NCBI GenBank assembly: GCA_016209225.1 | Contig: JACQWO010000005.1 | Coordinates: 1 to 35,859 of the forward strand | DNA length: 35,859 bases | Direction: 5' to 3' | Origin: Desulfobacterales bacterium | GTDB lineage: Bacteria > Desulfobacterota > UBA8473 | Shown here: positions 200 through 33,352 of the stretch, piece by piece | Layout of the letters: each line of letters starts with the position of its first letter | Numbering within the stretch: position 1 is the first letter of the stretch | Program-made: the position numbers and the translations under genes | Notes under the pieces: generated by a model | Seen by the model: only the letters and a program-made list of their open reading frames with translations | What the model was told of the DNA's origin: nothing | Databases searched by the model: none

Positions 200-3039
<2,840 letters not shown>

Positions 3040-3041
3040 GA

Positions 3042-4256
3042 ATGAGTGAGCACAAAGATAAACGGACATCGCGAGGCAGAGACAAAAACGAGGTGTTGTT
3101 TCCAGTAGCGCCCGACAAATCAGAATTACCTGGTACATATATTAATGTCCTTGCTGACATCAAAGAAAAAGTGCGGAAAACTCAGATAAAAGCAACCGTG
3201 AAAGTAAATACAGAGCTTCTCAACTTTTACTGGGAACTGGGTGCTGATATTCTCGAAAAACAGGCTCATACCAAATGGGGTGATGGTTTCTTACTGCAAC
3301 TTAGCAAGGATTTGATGTCAGAGTTCCCTGATATGAAAGGGTTTTCCAAACGCAATCTTGAACTAATCCGCCAATGGTATTTGTTTTATAGTCAGGACAG
3401 CAGAACAGATCAAATTGCGAAACAACCCGTTTCGCAATTGAGGATGGAGCAAAAAATCCAACAACCTGTTGGCCAAATTACACAACAGACTGCTTTACAA
3501 TTCTCGGCAGATCAGATTGTGCAACCGGCCATTGCACAAATAACCCAAATACCATGGGGACATAACATCGCCATAATTTCAAAATGCAAGAATATCGAAG
3601 AAGCGATTTACTATGTGCAGAACACGATTATTCATAATTGGAGTCGCAGTGTTTTGGTCCATCAGATGGAAAGTGGACTTTATAAGCGGGAGGGCAAGTC
3701 AGTTAATAACTTCGCTCTCACTTTACCAAAACCCCATTCTGATCTTGCCGTTCAGACGCTAAAAGATCCATATATTTTTGATTTTTTAAGCATGACTAAG
3801 GATTATAACGAGCGTGAACTGGAAAACGCGCTGGTGACCCATGTTACGCAGTTTTTGTTGGAACTTGGCGCTGGGTTTGCTTATCTGGGTAAGCAAGTAC
3901 CTCTGCAGGCAGGCAAACGGGAATTTTTTATTGATTTGCTGTTTTACCATACCAAACTGCACTGTTATGTAGTAATCGAATTGAAAACAGCTGATTTTGA
4001 ACCGGAACACACCGGGAAACTGAATTTCTATCTGAAAGCAGTTGACAGTCAGTTGCGCACAGAGCAAGACAAACCGACAATAGGTATCCTTATATGCAAA
4101 AAGAAAGATAAGGTAGTGGTTGAGTATGCTTTGAGCGACATCCATAAACCGATCGGCGTTTCAGAGTATCAATTAACGCAGTCATTGCCAAAGAAACTAA
4201 AATCAAGCCTTCCGAGCATTGAGGAAATTGAAAAAGAGCTGGAGGGGAAGGGATGA
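3042..4256 (+). CDS. YhcG-family (DUF1016) PDDEXK nuclease, copy 1
   Basis: A 404-residue protein of the DUF1016/YhcG family often found inside type I restriction operons. The N-terminal helical DUF1016_N part covers about residues 30-118 (NFYWELGADI, RNLELIRQWY). A Gln-rich variable linker (about 119-170) leads to PWGHN at 171 and a PDDEXK-type nuclease with Asp298 (FIDLLFYH), Glu313 and Lys315 (IELK). It appears intact. The linker DNA holds three perfect short palindromes (see the separate repeat entry). Its stop overlaps the next start as ATGA, which argues for translational coupling with the PIN-fusion gene. Its biological role is not settled; the nuclease assignment is from motifs. Confidence 0.88.
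   Translation: MSEHKDKRTSRGRDKNEVLFPVAPDKSELPGTYINVLADIKEKVRKTQIKATVKVNTELLNFYWELGADILEKQAHTKWGDGFLLQLSKDLMSEFPDMKGFSKRNLELIRQWYLFYSQDSRTDQIAKQPVSQLRMEQKIQQPVGQITQQTALQFSADQIVQPAIAQITQIPWGHNIAIISKCKNIEEAIYYVQNTIIHNWSRSVLVHQMESGLYKREGKSVNNFALTLPKPHSDLAVQTLKDPYIFDFLSMTKDYNERELENALVTHVTQFLLELGAGFAYLGKQVPLQAGKREFFIDLLFYHTKLHCYVVIELKTADFEPEHTGKLNFYLKAVDSQLRTEQDKPTIGILICKKKDKVVVEYALSDIHKPIGVSEYQLTQSLPKKLKSSLPSIEEIEKELEGKG
3413..3539. repeat. Three in-frame palindromes in the yhcG copy 1 linker
   Basis: Inside the coding sequence there are three perfect inverted repeats. AATTGCGAAA at 3413-3422 pairs with TTTCGCAATT at 3430-3439 (7-nt loop). CCAACA at 3458-3463 pairs with TGTTGG at 3467-3472 (3-nt loop). 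TTGTGCAA at 3517-3524 pairs with TTGCACAA at 3532-3539 (7-nt loop). They encode Gln/Ile-rich peptides of the linker between the helical and nuclease domains and keep the reading frame. Confidence 0.85.
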
Positions 4257-5764
4257 AGGCATTACTTGATACAAATATCATCATACACCGTGAAGCAAGC
4301 CGTGTCATAAGTCGCGACATTGGTACTCTGTTTAAGTGGCTCGATAAAGGAAAATACACAAAATGTATACATCCGATCACCGTCGAAGAAATTAATAAGA
4401 ATGTCAACAAGGATACTGCGCATGCTTTCAGTGTGAAATTAGACAGCTACGAAAAGCTTAGAACGGTTGCACCGTTAAATGATCAGGTAAAGGCTATCTC
4501 TGATTCTGTCGATGTCACAGTAAACGATAATAATGATACTCTCATGCTTAACGAAGTTTTCAGCGATAGAGTCGATCTGCTCATTACAGAAGATAAAAAC
4601 ATCCATAAGAAAGCAGTATTATTAGGAATTAGCGATAGAGTTTTTACAATCGATTCGTTTCTTGAGAAGGTTCTTTCCGAAAACCCAGAACTGGTGGATT
4701 ACAAAGTATTAAGCGTTACAAAAAGGCATTTTGGGGATGTCAATCTGAACGATTCTTTTTTCGACAGCTTCCGTGAGGATTATGTCGGGTTTGATAAATG
4801 GTTCAACAAAAAATCTGATGAAATTGCGTATGTGACGTATACTAGAGATACAATTCTGTCCTTCTTGTATTTAAAGATCGAAGGCACAGAGGAAAACTAC
4901 TCCGACATTACACCTGTTTTCAAACCAAAAAAGCGTCTGAAGGTCGGTACGTTAAAAGTCGTGAGCAATGGCCTGCGCTTGGGCGAACGCTTTTTGAAAA
5001 TTATTTTTGATAACGCTCTTATCAATAAAGTCGATGAAATCTATGTCACAATTTTTGATAAGCGTGATGATGAAAAACGATTAATTGTCTTGTTTGAAGA
5101 CTGGGGCTTCAAGCCTCATGGGAAAAAGCAATCTTCGAGCGGTCAAGAATTGGTTTATGTACGCAGTTTTCAACCTGCCTATGATTCAAAGAACCCGAAG
5201 CACACATACCCGTATTTATCGCAGCAGGCGGCTGTATTTTTGGTCCCCATATATCCAGAGTATCATACCGAGTTGCTGCCGGATTCAATATTAAGGACAG
5301 AGTCTCCTGAAGATTTCGTTGACAATGAGCCACATAGAAACGCAATTAGTAAAGTCTATATCTCAAGATCATTAGACAAAGGTTTAGACGTTGGCGATAT
5401 AATAATATTTTATCGTACCGGTGGATATTATAAAGGGGTCATTTCAACTATCGGGATAGTGGAAAAAGTTATAATAGACATAAAGGATGAACTCGATTTT
5501 ATCAGCAAGTGCAGAAAACGAAGTATATTTACGGATGAGGAACTGAAGAAGCATTGGAATTACAAAAAAACCATGAGACCATTTATAGTTAATTTCCTCT
5601 ATGCTTATTCATTTCCCAAAAGAATCAATTTAAAAGATCTGATTGATCTCGGCATTATTAAGAATATTGAGTCTGCGCCTCGTGGGTTTCAAAAAATCAC
5701 GCTCAACCAGTTTAACATAATAATGAGGGAGACCAAGACCGATGAAAGTATTGTTGTCGATTAA
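4253..5764 (+). CDS. PIN - GNAT-like - PUA/EVE-like fusion protein
   Basis: A 503-residue protein of unusual architecture. Residues 1-140 are a PIN-type RNase domain with the acidic set Asp6 (LLDTN), Glu45/46 (TVEEI), Asp95 (NDNNDTLML) and Asp114 (LLITEDKNI). Residues about 150-310 resemble a GNAT acyltransferase fold, ending in the typical VLFEDWGFKPHG. The acetyl-CoA loop (NGLRLGERFLK) is degenerate. Residues about 365-490 look like a PUA/EVE-type module (LDVGDIIIFYRTGGYYKGVI). It overlaps yhcG by ATGA and the ASCH gene by 23 bp, so the three genes look like one translational unit. An RNA-directed function is inferred from PIN plus PUA; substrate and activity are unknown. I do not recognise a named gene. 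Confidence 0.72.
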   Translation: MKALLDTNIIIHREASRVISRDIGTLFKWLDKGKYTKCIHPITVEEINKNVNKDTAHAFSVKLDSYEKLRTVAPLNDQVKAISDSVDVTVNDNNDTLMLNEVFSDRVDLLITEDKNIHKKAVLLGISDRVFTIDSFLEKVLSENPELVDYKVLSVTKRHFGDVNLNDSFFDSFREDYVGFDKWFNKKSDEIAYVTYTRDTILSFLYLKIEGTEENYSDITPVFKPKKRLKVGTLKVVSNGLRLGERFLKIIFDNALINKVDEIYVTIFDKRDDEKRLIVLFEDWGFKPHGKKQSSSGQELVYVRSFQPAYDSKNPKHTYPYLSQQAAVFLVPIYPEYHTELLPDSILRTESPEDFVDNEPHRNAISKVYISRSLDKGLDVGDIIIFYRTGGYYKGVISTIGIVEKVIIDIKDELDFISKCRKRSIFTDEELKKHWNYKKTMRPFIVNFLYAYSFPKRINLKDLIDLGIIKNIESAPRGFQKITLNQFNIIMRETKTDESIVVD

Positions 5765-6125
5765 GCCGGAATTTGCCGAAATGATATTTTCCGGAACAAA
5801 AAAATACGAGTTCCGTCGTTCTGTTTTTAAGAATCCAGATGTAAAAACCATTGTTGTTTATGCGTCTTCTCCTGTGCGGAAAGTTATCGGCGAGTTCGAG
5901 ATAGGAGCGATCATTAACGATGAATTGGTGGCATTATGGGAACAAACAAAGGAATATGCCGGTATAAACGAGGATTATTTTTTTAAGTATTTCTCTAATA
6001 AAGAATACGGCTATGCCATCCAAATTAAGAATGTAACAAAATACAGAAAAGCATTGTGCTTGCGTGAAGACTTTAATGCTACACCGCCGCAGTCTTTTAT
6101 GTATTTGAACGCGGAGATGGCATGA
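5742..6125 (+). CDS. ASCH domain protein
   Basis: A small (127-residue) stand-alone ASCH (PUA-fold) protein. The family signature GxKxxExR is seen at residues 18-25 (SGTKKYEFRR), followed by VVYASSPV and the family-typical IGEFEI. ASCH proteins bind RNA; characterised members include an N4-acetylcytidine amidohydrolase (YqfB) and ribonucleases, so an RNA role is plausible but unproved here. The start lies inside the preceding PIN-fusion gene and the end overlaps hsdS as ATGA, so the protein is probably made in fixed ratio with its upstream partner. It is intact, unlike the hsd genes around it. Confidence 0.85.
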   Translation: MKVLLSIKPEFAEMIFSGTKKYEFRRSVFKNPDVKTIVVYASSPVRKVIGEFEIGAIINDELVALWEQTKEYAGINEDYFFKYFSNKEYGYAIQIKNVTKYRKALCLREDFNATPPQSFMYLNAEMA

Positions 6126-7068
6126 GTGAATGGAAGGAATGCAAGCTGGGGGACGTGGTTCGGCTCAATTACGGCAAAGGTTTACCTGAGCGAAAAAGAA
6201 AACCAGGTCACGTACCTGTCTTTAGTTCAGCAGGTATAACAGGTTGGCACAATATACCGATAGTAAATAATAAGGGAATCATAATCGGCAGAAAAGGTAC
6301 GATTGGAACAGTTTACTATTCTGACAAGCCATTTTTTTGCATCGATACCGCGTATTATATAGAACCGGATGAAGCAAAGTATGACATCAAATATCTTTTT
6401 TATCTACTTAACACGATAGGATTAAAAGAACTTAACGAGGACAGTGCCGTTCCAGGATTAAATAGAGATACGGCATACGCTCAAGAAATCATTCTCCCCT
6501 CGCTCCCTGAACAGCGGGCCATTGCCGGTGTACTGTCCAGTCTCGACGACAAGATCGATCTTCTGCACCGGCAGAACAAAACCCTTGAAGGAATGGCCGA
6601 GGCCCTCTGGCGGAAGATGTTTGTGGAGGAGGCCGATCCGGAATGGAAGAAGGGGAAGCTGGGGGATTACGGACAGATTATTTGCGGTAAAACACCATCA
6701 AAAAAAGTTGTAGAATATTTTGGCGGCCATATCCCATTTATTAAAATTCCAGATATGCATAGCAATGTCTTTATTTTTGAGACAGAGGATTCATTAACAG
6801 ACATGGGAAGGGAATCCCAGCAAAACAAAACTATACCCCCAAAATCAATTTGTGTCAGTTGTATCGCTACGGTCGGATTAGTCGGCATGAACGCTTTTAC
6901 TAGCCAAACTAACCAGCAGATAAATACAATTGTGCCGAATAAAGAGTTTCAGCGATATTTTTTGTTTTTGTTAATGCGAAATACCAGGCGCAAACACTAA
7001 AGCTCGCCAGCCTCCGCGACACACTCCTCCCAAAGCTGATGTCCGGAGAAGTGAGGGTCAAATTATGA
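6122..7068 (+). pseudogene. hsdS: HsdS specificity subunit with internal deletion and frameshift
   Basis: From 6122 the frame gives target-recognition domain 1 (about residues 1-130), the conserved spacer PSLPEQRAIAGVLSSLDDKI and most of recognition domain 2 from about residue 175 (KGKLGDYGQIICGKTPS). It then stops at 7000. The true HsdS C-terminus (AQTLKLASLRDTLLPKLMSG) is present in a different frame, at about 6967-7068, ending in TGA. Roughly 60 or more residues that normally link the two are missing, so a deletion near 6965 removed the end of domain 2 and changed frame. The restored C-terminal frame overlaps the next ATG as ATGA, showing the original operon joint. The shorter 292-residue product may still be made but is unlikely to be a working specificity subunit. 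Confidence 0.85.
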
Positions 7069-7634
7069 CCGAACATAAACTGATCCCGCCCCATGGCGGT
7101 TTTCGTAAATTACGCAGCTTTCAATGCGCCCAGAGTGTATATGACGGAACCGTCGTTTTCTGTAACCGTTTTGTTGATAAAAAATCCCGCACACACGATC
7201 AAATGGTCCAGGCGGCCCGTAGCGGAGTGCAAAATATCGCTGAAGGAAGCCTTGCTTCAGCAACATCAAAGAAAACCGAGCTGAAATTGACCGGGGTTGC
7301 CAGAGCCAGTCTTGGCGAATTGCTGCTCGATTTCGAGGATTTCCTGCGACAGAAAAAAATGCGCCAGTGGGCCAAAAACGATCCCGAAGCCTTAGAAGTC
7401 CGGGGAAAATTCAGATCTGACAAGTCTGACAAGTCCTACGGGTCAGACATGTCAGACAATTATCATTTCTCGGAGCTGTCGGCAGAACGACTGGCAAACA
7501 CACTCATCTGCCTGATAAACCAGGCAAGCTATTTGCTATGGCAACAGATAAAATTTCTGGAAAAAGAGTTTCTGAATACCGGTGGTTTTACAGAGCGCAT
7601 GTATAAGGTTCGAAAAAACTTCAGGAAAGAATAA
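7065..7634 (+). CDS. Four-helix-bundle suffix-domain protein
   Basis: A 189-residue protein resembling the four-helix-bundle (S23/IVP-like) suffix-domain family that occurs in restriction operons. Typical parts are GGFRKLRSFQ near residue 11, the helix SGVQNIAEGS near 53, and a C-terminal helix ANTLICLINQASYLLWQQI. In the middle (about residues 118-132) is a low-complexity Ser/Asp/Lys linker encoded by a near-perfect DNA palindrome. It starts within the old hsdS stop (ATGA) and its stop overlaps the hsdR start (TAATG). Function is unknown for the family. It appears intact. Confidence 0.78.
   Translation: MTEHKLIPPHGGFRKLRSFQCAQSVYDGTVVFCNRFVDKKSRTHDQMVQAARSGVQNIAEGSLASATSKKTELKLTGVARASLGELLLDFEDFLRQKKMRQWAKNDPEALEVRGKFRSDKSDKSYGSDMSDNYHFSELSAERLANTLICLINQASYLLWQQIKFLEKEFLNTGGFTERMYKVRKNFRKE
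7416..7456. repeat. In-frame palindrome in the four-helix suffix gene
   Basis: TCTGACAAGTCTGAC at 7416-7430 is the reverse complement of GTCAGACATGTCAGA at 7442-7456 except for one base, around an 11-nt loop. It encodes the DKSDKS/SDMSD linker and keeps the frame. Confidence 0.85.
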
Positions 7635-8208
7635 TGACTGCCTTTACTGAGTCCGAAATTGAAGTCTTTTCTATTGACGAACTCAAGCAGCTCGGTTTTT
7701 CCTACATCTCGGGGCCGTCCATTGCGCCCGATGTTGAAGCCACTCAGGCTTTTATGGTGGCTGAATCTGAATCATCATACGGTGAACCGGAAAAGCGCGG
7801 AAGCTATAGCGATGTCGTTTCAAGGCATACGTTGGAACAAGCCATAAAGCACCTGAATCCAGCGGTGCCGGAAACAGCCCGGCAGGAAGCCCTTAAAGCA
7901 GCGTTGTCCGTGTTTTCTCTACAACTTATTGACGCGAACGAAACCTTTCATAAGATGCTTGCCGAAGGCGTTCCGGTCACAGTGCATAAAGATGGCCAGG
8001 AACGCGGCGAGCTGGTCTGGCTGGTTGATTTTCAGAATCCGGAGAATAATGTTTTCTTTACGATAAATAGAAGGCAAGAATCTTCTGGATATGCTTGAGG
8101 CATCGATCAAGAAGAATCAATGGATACCCGCCGGACAAGCAACAAAAAGCAGTTGATACAGTGCTTAAACAGGCTGAAGTGTTGGCAGATTATTGGGTGA
8201 ATAAGTAA
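7634..8208 (+). pseudogene. hsdR: HsdR relic: N-terminus plus C-terminal scraps in three frames
   Basis: The frame from 7634 to 8098 carries the start of a type I restriction endonuclease (AFTESEIE, LGFSYISGPSIAP, HKMLAEGVPVTV, LVDFQNPENNVFF). The nuclease core and the whole helicase motor are missing. Directly after it, at about 8073-8121 in another frame, is the C-terminal motif [15 protein letters not shown]. At 8125-8208, in the third frame, is the very end of HsdR ([18 protein letters not shown]). About 150 N-terminal and 45 C-terminal residues remain of a protein that normally has about 1000. This cannot be an active translocase or nuclease. The relic ends 5 bp before rsmI. Confidence 0.85.
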
Positions 8209-10420: not shown

Positions 10421-10492
10421 GTAACTGCTTAGGTGGATAGGCTGTAGACTGTTAGACTGTAGCCTAACAGACTAAACAACCTGAATAGTAAC
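10421..10492. repeat. Dispersed TIR repeat, copy 1
   Basis: About 72 bp beginning GTAACTGCTTAGGTG and ending CCTGAATAGTAAC, which are imperfect inverted repeats of each other. An internal GTAGACTGTTAGACTGTAG is itself repetitive. The same ends recur at 11748, 30486 and 33176. There is no coding capacity. Confidence 0.75.
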
Positions 10493-11747: not shown

Positions 11748-11945
11748 ATAACTACTCAGGTTCAAAGTTCCAAGGTTCACAGTTCAAGGTTAGAGAGTCC
11801 GCCAGAGTCGGAAAGATTGAACGGTTTGAAGATATTGAGGCCTGGCAACTGGCACGTGAATTGACTCGAAAAGTGTACCGTCTAACAAACAAGCCAGGAC
11901 TTCCAACCAACCGTGAACTGTGAACCTGACAACCTGAATAGTTGC
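11748..11945. repeat. Dispersed TIR repeat, copy 2, with nested inverted-repeat element
   Basis: The outer ends TAACTACTCAGG (11749-11760) and CCTGAATAGTTGC (11933-11945) match those of the other copies. Inside, GGTTCACAGTTCA (11774-11786) and TGAACTGTGAACC (11914-11926) form a perfect 13-bp inverted repeat around a fragment of a four-helix-bundle gene. The right end runs into the GGAGGAG ribosome site of the next gene. Confidence 0.72.
11804..11923 (+). pseudogene. Four-helix-bundle (S23/IVP-like) gene fragment
   Basis: The frame reads GKIERFEDIEAWQLARELT and RKVYRLTNK, the recognisable first helix of four-helix-bundle proteins of the 23S rRNA intervening-sequence type. It then runs into the right inverted-repeat arm and stops. 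Only about 30 residues of a protein that normally has about 120 remain, and I see no start codon, so this is debris. Confidence 0.7.
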
Positions 11946-22976: not shown

Positions 22977-24026
22977 ATGAAAAAGATATCTACTGAAATA
23001 AAGGTAGGTGTATTCGTGGTCCTGGGGATACTTGTCCTTGCCTATATGACTGTAAATATAGAGAAGATAGGGATTGGCAGGGCGGTGGGATATAGGATAT
23101 TTACAAAGCTGGACTCTGCCGCAGGATTGGTTAAGAATTCACCTGTTAGGATTGCAGGGGTTGAAGTAGGCAGGGTAGAAAATATTGTCCTTGAGAATGG
23201 AAAGGCAAAGGTGACTTTACGCCTTCCCTTTCAGATAACACTGCCCATTGACTCTATGGCTTTTGTAAAATCAGAGGGTCTTTTAGGAGAAAAATACATC
23301 GAGATTCAACCGGGCTCGTCTAAAGATGTATTTGTCCAACAAAACGCCGAAGTCAGACAGGGGGCATCTCCGGCAGACATTGATCAAATCTTCACTCAAA
23401 TTGGCTCTGTTGCTACAGATATTAAAGGAGTAACTGCCTCCTTAAACAGGGTATTGGGGGGGGGAGAAGGCGAACAGTCTTTGAAAAAGACCTTTGAAAA
23501 TATTAAAGAGATAACCTCTGATTTGAATATAACAATAAAACAAAATAGAGAAAAATTTAGTACTACTATGAGTAATTTTGAAAATCTTAGCCGAGACCTG
23601 GCTGGGGTCTCCGCCAAAGCAGGAGATACCTTTAACACCATAAACAGGGTAGCAAAGAAGATCGATGATGGTGAGGGAACTCTGGGTAAACTGGTGGCAG
23701 ATAAAACCCTTTATGACCAGTCCAAAGATGCCATGGCAAGCCTTAATAAGATAGTCAAGAAGATCGATGATGGTGAGGGAACTCTGGGTAAACTGGTGAC
23801 GGACAAAACCCTATATGACCAGTCCAAAGATGCCATGACAAGCCTTAACAATATAGCCAAAAAGATTGAAAAGGGTGAGGGAACCCTGGGCAAGTTGATC
23901 ACTGACGAGACCCTTTATACCGAGACAAAGAGCGCCATAAAGAAGGTTAATAAGGCAGCTGAAGGGGTACAGGAGCAAACCCCTGTAACTGTATTGGGGA
24001 CTGTTTTAGGCACTGTGTTGAGATAG
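22977..24026 (+). CDS. mlaD: MlaD-family (MCE domain) substrate-binding protein
   Basis: A 349-residue protein anchored by an N-terminal membrane segment (VGVFVVLGILVLAYM), with the MCE domain at about residues 37-120 (FTKLDSAAGLVKNSPVRIAG, EKYIEIQPGS). In the mla model it forms a periplasmic hexamer that carries lipid. After it comes an extended helical part and, at about residues 227-330, three 34-residue repeats with core KKIDDGEGTLGKLV. The repeats are nearly identical in DNA. A run of nine G at about 23456-23464 lies in the coding sequence (VLGGGEG). It ends 28 bp before the lipoprotein gene. Confidence 0.92.
   Translation: MKKISTEIKVGVFVVLGILVLAYMTVNIEKIGIGRAVGYRIFTKLDSAAGLVKNSPVRIAGVEVGRVENIVLENGKAKVTLRLPFQITLPIDSMAFVKSEGLLGEKYIEIQPGSSKDVFVQQNAEVRQGASPADIDQIFTQIGSVATDIKGVTASLNRVLGGGEGEQSLKKTFENIKEITSDLNITIKQNREKFSTTMSNFENLSRDLAGVSAKAGDTFNTINRVAKKIDDGEGTLGKLVADKTLYDQSKDAMASLNKIVKKIDDGEGTLGKLVTDKTLYDQSKDAMTSLNNIAKKIEKGEGTLGKLITDETLYTETKSAIKKVNKAAEGVQEQTPVTVLGTVLGTVLR
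23655..23956 (+). repeat. Three tandem 102-bp repeats in mlaD
   Basis: Units start at about 23655, 23757 and 23859, exactly 102 bp (34 codons) apart. The first two are almost identical; the third is more diverged (KKIEKGEGTLGKLI). Confidence 0.85.
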
Positions 24027-30348: not shown

Positions 30349-30485
30349 AAAATTCTTGCAATAAAAAGATTTGGATGCAAATAGACAAAATCCTAATTGG
30401 TTCACACTGAAAAATTCCCTTTTCCGCTCTCTAGTGCGGGTTTTTTGACCCATCTATGACTCGCTTCAGGCATTTTCAGGAGGAA

Positions 30486-30566
30486 CTAATTACTCAGATG
30501 TTTAGGCTGAAGACCAAAGTGTCCTAACGGTCTCCCGCCTTCAGTCTATCCACCTGAATCAGTTGC
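30486..30566. repeat. Dispersed TIR repeat, copy 3
   Basis: It starts TAATTACTCAGATGTTTAGG and ends CACCTGAATCAGTTGC. The middle (GTGTCCTAACGG, CAGTCTATC) matches the reverse complement of the copy at 33176-33248. It lies about 25 bp upstream of the mreB promoter. Confidence 0.75.
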
Positions 30567-33175: not shown

Positions 33176-33248
33176 GTAACTGCTCAGGCAGATAGACTAA
33201 AGGTGGAAGGCCGTTAGGACACTTCAGCTTAAACACCTAAGCAGTTAC
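33176..33248. repeat. Dispersed TIR repeat, copy 4 (inverted orientation)
   Basis: About 73 bp from GTAACTGCTCAGGC to CACCTAAGCAGTTAC. It is the reverse complement, with differences, of the copy at 30486-30566. Confidence 0.78.
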
Positions 33249-33322
33249 TTTGATTGAGCCAATGGTCGTAGAAATCGAGAAGGTCTTGAATGGTTTGATT
33301 CGTGCCTTGCGAGATGCTTTAT

Positions 33323-33352
33323 AGCCTTCAGTCTAAATACCTGAGTAGTTAC
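33323..33352. repeat. Dispersed TIR repeat, half copy
   Basis: AGCCTTCAGTCTAAATACC then TGAGTAGTTAC matches the right end of the 30486 copy. The left end of this unit is missing; together with 33176 it may form a nested pair. It ends 9 bp before the chosen mrdA start. Confidence 0.65.

Follow-up and report, generated by a model that had tools for sequence, protein, structure and literature searches.

The window analysed here is a stretch of 35,859 nucleotides of a Desulfobacterales genome (G000, 3.1 Mb). Between a gene for a PilT-like ATPase and a gene for a zinc-ribbon/receiver-like protein it holds a small element, intergenic and outside any rRNA gene, with the following parts:

11748-11945, + strand: mobile-element remnant of 198 bp with type A arms and IS66-type ends; the orthologous place is without it in three genomes of the genus (G001, G002 and G004) and one of the family (G006)
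11748-11760, + strand: left terminal end ATAACTACTCAGG, one mismatch to the family consensus GTAACTACTCAGG; same 12-bp end family as the IS66 elements L284, L288 and L290
11761-11799, + strand: left inner arm, of the degenerate heptamers GGTTCAA AGTTCCA AGGTTCA CAGTTCA AGGTTAG (from the sequence)
11774-11786, + strand: left half of a 13-bp inverted repeat, GGTTCACAGTTCA (from the sequence)
11813-11902, + strand: remnant of a four-helix (PF05635/IVP) gene, N-terminal, about 30 codons (tblastn and translation)
11914-11926, - strand: right half of the 13-bp inverted repeat, TGAACTGTGAACC, in the inner arm (from the sequence)
11933-11945, - strand: right terminal end CCTGAATAGTTGC (from the sequence)

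The first-pass annotation of this DNA had reported a 13-bp inverted repeat around a fragment of a four-helix gene, the whole nested in a copy of a repeat with terminal inverted repeats. Indeed, GGTTCACAGTTCA and TGAACTGTGAACC are exact reverse complements, and their pairing reaches 14 bp (11773-11927). One further perfect 13-bp inverted repeat, with halves at most 200 bp apart, occurs in the window, and 50 dinucleotide shuffles of the window contained either none or one each, eight in total. The gene fragment between the arms is likewise real: over 30 aa it is 93% identical to the L006 copy (E 9e-18, tblastn), and none of 285 shuffled elements matched IVP proteins; the window remnant alone gave no match in Pfam or NCBIfam profile searches. 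The enclosing repeat copy runs from 11748 to 11945, as described above. The annotation also took the 13-bp repeat to bound the unit. This is indeed an inverted-repeat unit, but the 13-bp repeat is its inner arm, built of GGTTCAC-like heptamers, and the mobile unit reaches outward to the 13-bp IS66-type ends; such ends come with 8-bp duplications at part of the copies, and the unit is not driven by its arms alone.

In G001, G002, G004 and G006, the stop codon of the upstream gene is followed directly by the ribosome-binding region of the next gene, with no element. The target duplication of the window copy is poor (5 of 8 letters). The predicted RNA fold is unusually stable (z of -4.1 for the window element and -6.0 for the L005 unit), an effect that is seen on both strands and does not distinguish DNA from RNA.

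The ends of the window element define a family in G000. The 12-bp form of the consensus end, AACTRYTYAGGT, has 152 exact matches in 3.1 Mb, compared to 3 for the reversed control. Our survey took in about two thirds of these matches (the first 100, which stop short of the final places on C62 and C63), and among them 81 loci gave 57 paired elements of 42-472 bp, too small for a transposase gene. Perfect 8-bp target duplications were found at 13 of the 57 and a 7/8 match at 4 more, the other 40 falling below 7; a match of at least 7/8 was thus seen in 17/57 own pairs vs. 5/3,192 cross pairs. Eight of the 57 paired elements examined match IVP proteins. The L005 element, whose left end is GTAACTATTCAGG, has a complete IVP gene of 119 residues, those at L006 and L008 have partial genes, and short remnants remain at L028, L030, L034 (the window copy), L039 and L061. 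All the other elements are bare arms. By arm type, 19 elements are of type A (GGTTCA) and 2 more match both A and C, 17 are of type B (AGRCTG), 16 of type C (GGCACA) and 3 none of these. No DNA relatives of the L005 unit were found on plasmids. Further members of the family lie in the window itself:

10421-10492, + strand: gene-less sibling element with type B arms; 8-bp duplication with 7/8 letters; site occupied in G001 and G003, vacant in G002 and G004
30484-30566, + strand: degenerate sibling element with type B arms (by eye)
33176-33248, + strand: gene-less sibling element of type B, within an older type B gene remnant
33249-33352, + strand: 3' portion of a four-helix gene of type B, including the right terminal end CCTGAGTAGTTAC (identified by eye from the L005 protein)

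At 33176-33352, a small type B element has apparently inserted into an older remnant of a four-helix gene, at its 3' end.

Ends that begin 5'-GTAA, together with 8-bp duplications, are typical of the IS66 family. Three one-gene IS66 elements of 1.76 kb from elsewhere in the phylum (L288, L290 and L291) have GTAACTATTCAG ends and perfect 8-bp duplications, and the same 12 letters occur in L283 and L284; the window element has GTAACTATTCAG over 12 bp in common with L283, L284, L288 and L290. It codes for the IVP remnant only, lacks DDE_Tnp_IS66 and is therefore not itself a member of the IS66 family. The sole IS66 gene (PF03050) of G000 lies elsewhere and has other ends, GTAACTTCTCACG. An IS66 fragment in a same-family relative ends in GTAACTACCCAGG, and a search with this fragment against 297 genomes of the phylum gave matches in 8. 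No autonomous IS66 element with exactly GTAACTACTCAGG ends was found in G000. Judged by their sequence, the ends that the window family uses are of IS66 type, and we infer that its members were moved in trans by an IS66-family transposase. The shared ends, the 8-bp duplications and the gene remnants together suggest that the window copy derives by deletion from a transposase-less cassette moved in this way. A second end type, GGTTCATCTCCC...GGGAGAAGAACC (by eye), bounds two copies of one IVP unit, L002 and L004, with 8-bp duplications AAATTAAT and ATATTTTT, respectively (by eye). These near-identical units lie on C23 (L002, at 1417-1906 of that locus) and on C33 (L004).

Inverted arms are not confined to this family. 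In G000, 9 of 11 PF05635 matches lie above the cut-off, and the L005 protein matches the XCC0516 structure 2gsc (E 1.7e-24). The arms of other IVP units in this genome are made of ATCGTAA (L001), AAGGATTC (L002 and L004) or AAGAATG (L007). We counted as armed any locus with a score of at least 12 for an inverted repeat between its two flanks, with a stricter tier at 16 or more. Of the 27 usable IVP loci of G000 and ten relatives, 23 reached 12, compared to 8/784 random spans and 5/132 control ORFs, and all five of these armed control ORFs are Y1 transposase genes, themselves mobile. The 27 are drawn from 41 IVP loci: three suffix-type loci were scored separately, and 11 on contig edges or short fragments (L003, L007, L122, L128, L130, L131, L136, L137, L138, L141 and L143) were omitted, a mixed set in which several have arms (e.g. 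L138 and L131) and several do not (L141, L143 and L122).

A similar picture was obtained across many phyla. This wider survey used the best 80 of at least 586 relatives, a sample biased toward relatives of query A2; 9 of the 80 loci, with less than 250 bp of flank, were left uncounted, giving 71 with full flanks. At scores of at least 12 and at least 16, respectively, arms were found for 55/71 and 44/71 IVP genes, compared to 14/280 and 5/280 control ORFs, 94/4,970 and 17/4,970 cross-locus pairings, and 12/71 and 6/71 of the same loci with their flanks in direct orientation. The genes below the arm threshold number 16 of 71 in this survey and 4 of 27 among the nearby ones. For the same 71 genes from the best 80 of at least 586, the upstream tandem period is 7/14 in 35, 8/16 in 15 and 6/9 in 2, with none in 19, and an upstream tandem array was seen at 28/254 control ORFs. 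All ten plasmid IVP units examined, of 58 match rows, have arms scoring at least 17. The first-pass annotation had proposed that four-helix genes travel as small inverted-repeat units lacking a transposase; the units at L005, L006 and L008, the empty sites and the 55 armed genes of 71 (best 80 of at least 586) bear this out. Its suggestion of GGTTCA-rich repeats as the common flank, which this survey checked, did not hold up, as the repeat varies from unit to unit. The common trait is the mirror-image tandem-array architecture, and the repeat itself may be a heptamer, an octamer or a nonamer. We also looked in 87 arms for the 'four conserved plus one' heptamer rule of Xanthomonas; the middle, variable position surpassed both its neighbours in conservation in 28 and fell below both in 17, and we do not claim the rule here. 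On a plasmid of Nostoc ATCC 53789, an IVP unit with AAGTCGC arms of more than 100 bp (L277) lies beside XisH/XisI genes.

To compare arms with protein lineage we used 101 loci, with 32 pairs that shared outer flanks excluded. At unshared sites, 13 of the 37 pairs whose proteins are at least 60% identical agreed in their arms; for pairs at 50-60%, 40-50%, 30-40% and below 30% identity, the counts were 16/783, 41/2,421, 11/840 and 20/937, respectively. For example, L124 of G003 and L274 of an Aulosira plasmid are 80% identical and both have CAGRAGT arms, and L002 of G000 and L144 of a Desulfosarcina bin both have AAGGATTC arms. Arm sequence thus tracks protein lineage rather than insertion site, suggesting that the gene together with its arms is the moving unit. 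We infer that IVP genes form mobile modules of a gene plus its cognate repeat, which resemble the 23S rRNA intervening sequence.

Gene loss could be followed at the L124 site. The gene is present in G003 only; G000 keeps its start region, CAGAATGAAAAGGG, within a gene-less hairpin, and at this place G002 and G004 contain different hairpins, also without the gene. The retained start region marks the G000 hairpin as a residue of gene loss. Both G000 and G003 contain the L001 unit, and G001, G002 and G004 have a mini-hairpin of the same heptamer in its place. We also considered that the L001 unit had inserted into a mini-hairpin already there; this is inseparable from gene loss at the L001 site, and the L124 site favours loss.

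Gene-less hairpins are also scattered widely. Doubled TCGTRAR heptamers number 110, 19, 53, 209 and 25 in G000 to G004, respectively, vs. 0 in the genus for the reversed control; there were none in three further genomes of the family that were searched and 13 in G018. The highest counts are those of the two gene-bearing species (L001 and L114), which with five genomes is no more than a hint. Of 21 TCGTRAR places inspected, 17 are gene-less inverted pairs and four have a single arm (L232, L237, L240 and L251), L240 ending at a contig edge. Some of the hairpins are orthologous or paralogous to one another, and several have a loop like GGTTTTATTCC. No target duplication was seen at the 15 bare TCGTRAR hairpins examined, so IS66 does not account for the spread of hairpins outside IS66 ends. 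The heptamer of IVP unit L207 in Geobacter sp. AOG1 recurs at nine other places there, and it was found in one of seven other genomes; six of the nine places were read, giving one clear hairpin, one weak one and otherwise short arrays.

These data allow us to weigh other explanations of the arms. The arms might belong to the site, with replication slippage and quasi-palindrome repair making heptamer arrays in which IVP genes land or survive. The mini-hairpin of gene-less species at the L001 site would fit this view, as would the upstream arrays of the 28 control ORFs and the paired changes between the arms of orthologous hairpins, which are what quasi-palindrome repair would produce. However, related proteins have the same arms at unshared sites (L124/L274 and L002/L144), and the gene-less G000 copy at the L124 site still contains the start of the gene; we regard a site-born origin as very unlikely. 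Arms that instead serve as an RNA control element or terminator of a resident gene, an operon regulator or RNA-processing factor whose mobility is incidental and ancient, would account for their unusually stable predicted RNA fold, for the position of several units between an upstream stop codon and the next gene (15 loci, by eye) and for a Flavobacterium unit that three species retain at the same position (L195, L205 and L218). This seems improbable in view of the patchy presence of units at single sites within one genus, the different neighbours of close relatives and the units inside cas loci on plasmids.

A different mover has also to be considered. REPs are not known to make target duplications, and the bare TCGTRAR hairpins resemble them in this respect; G000 has 13 Y1 matches, and the five armed ORFs among the 132 controls are all Y1 genes. 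A REP/RAYT-like Y1 transposase could therefore mobilize heptamer hairpins and IVP units as REP-like sequences. The repeats at Y1 genes are GGGGAC-type, though, unlike the arms of any IVP unit examined, and we accordingly found no Y1 gene with same-sequence cognate hairpins at its flanks. In addition, the GTAAC elements have 8-bp duplications, which Y1 enzymes are not known to make, and a scan for GTAAC ends (up to 3 mismatches) gave only stray matches at Y1 loci. We consider a Y1 mover unlikely. The large Y1 genes at L045, L047, L048, L049 and L050 of G000 lie between inverted GGGGAC/GGGGTC-type repeats, some of them tandemly repeated.

The explanation we favor, and hold to be probable, is that the window feature arose by deletion from a non-autonomous cassette with IS66-type ends, heptamer arms and an IVP gene, and that the IVP gene moves with its arms in general. 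The full cassette would have three nested layers: outer 13-bp IS66-type ends, inverted arms of tandem heptamers and a central four-helix (23S-IVP/S23) gene. An IS66-family transposase acting in trans would have cut such cassettes and pasted them into intergenic DNA with an 8-bp duplication, an event visible in part in the elements above. The IVP protein, a relative of XCC0516, may bind its own heptamer arms as folded DNA or RNA. Deletion between the arms would then drop the gene and leave the hairpin, as seen at one site. Hairpins could afterwards spread in trans or simply persist, their arm symmetry being kept by hairpin-templated repair, which would fit the paired arm changes mentioned above.

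The proposed cassette resembles several known systems. It shares with IS66 insertion sequences the 12-bp end GTAACTATTCAG and the perfect 8-bp duplications of L288, L290 and L291, but the G000 elements have no transposase gene, measure 42-472 bp vs. about 1.75 kb and carry, or once carried, an IVP gene. Like MITEs and mobile insertion cassettes (MICs), they have IS-like ends that enclose either nothing or a gene other than a transposase, and they would move in trans; they differ in their additional inverted heptamer arms, which also occur without IS66 ends, and in having a nucleic acid-associated four-helix protein as passenger. Drosophila foldback elements have long inverted ends of tandem subrepeats, whereas IVP units are bacterial, far smaller and gene-bearing. 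REP/RAYT systems share the dispersed hairpins without target duplication, here the TCGTRAR family, but IVP units encode a four-helix bundle and not a Y1 transposase.

A further likeness is to rRNA intervening sequences. Since the 1990s, IVP/S23 genes have been known in fragmented 23S rRNA, where a transposition remnant is an old proposal, and in the Coxiella burnetii 23S rRNA intervening sequence three GACAGAT heptamers lie directly before the S23p ORF, with complementary borders forming a long stem (both in the sections of PMC4990558 we draw on). The protein family, the pairable inverted borders and the heptamers before the ORF are shared, but the units described here are intergenic and the intervening sequences lie within rRNA. 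Dispersed intergenic heptamer arrays (SSR/STRR) are also found in Xanthomonas, Nostoc and Beggiatoaceae. The Xanthomonas repeat forms 70-75 convergent pairs at a mean of 28 nt from the upstream ORF (Rehm et al., PMC4692102), and MacGregor (PMC4679880) describes TAACTGA arrays as mechanistically unexplained; the portions of these two papers available to us draw no link to four-helix proteins. Our literature search, with preprints and most subscription journals outside it, found no work linking IVP genes generally to flanking inverted heptamer arrays. The framing by mirrored 7-9-mer arrays suggests that these are mobile genes of a class so far little recognised.

One possible extension, which we offer tentatively, is that IVP proteins and mirrored heptamer arrays form widespread minimal selfish elements, in which the protein would recognise its own hairpin and promote its spread or maintenance. 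IS ends would be captured when convenient, as with the IS66-type ends of the window family and the second end type, with its 8-bp duplications, at L002 and L004. The 23S rRNA intervening sequences would then be insertions of such elements, and the Xanthomonas, Nostoc and Beggiatoaceae heptamers their gene-less remains, offering a single source for the mechanism-less heptamer arrays of several bacterial groups. The empty sites, decay products and gene-linked repeats make the old transposition proposal for intervening sequences testable outside rRNA. IVP is listed among proteins near CRISPR adaptation genes in the part of Altae-Tran et al. (PMC10910872) we refer to. On three cyanobacterial plasmids (L275, L276 and L279), the cas loci contain IVP units, placed either between cas2 and cas1 or between cas6 and cas4; these units read as inserted passengers, not parts, which would explain the presence of IVP genes there.

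A second four-helix gene had been noted in the restriction island of the window. The gene, at 7065-7634, does encode a four-helix protein, but of another kind: it contains the suffix domain TIGR04258, its IVP score is below the cut-off, and neither it nor two other suffix-type loci have inverted arms (scores of 8, 7 and 7 at L010, L011 and L123). The island itself (2290-8098) is made up of apparently broken M, R and S pieces, namely an N6-methylase fragment, a short HsdR N-terminus and a specificity-like ORF, in addition to the four-helix suffix protein. Elsewhere in the window, at 23624-23929, a 102-bp coding repeat is present in three tandem copies within an MCE/MlaD-like gene.
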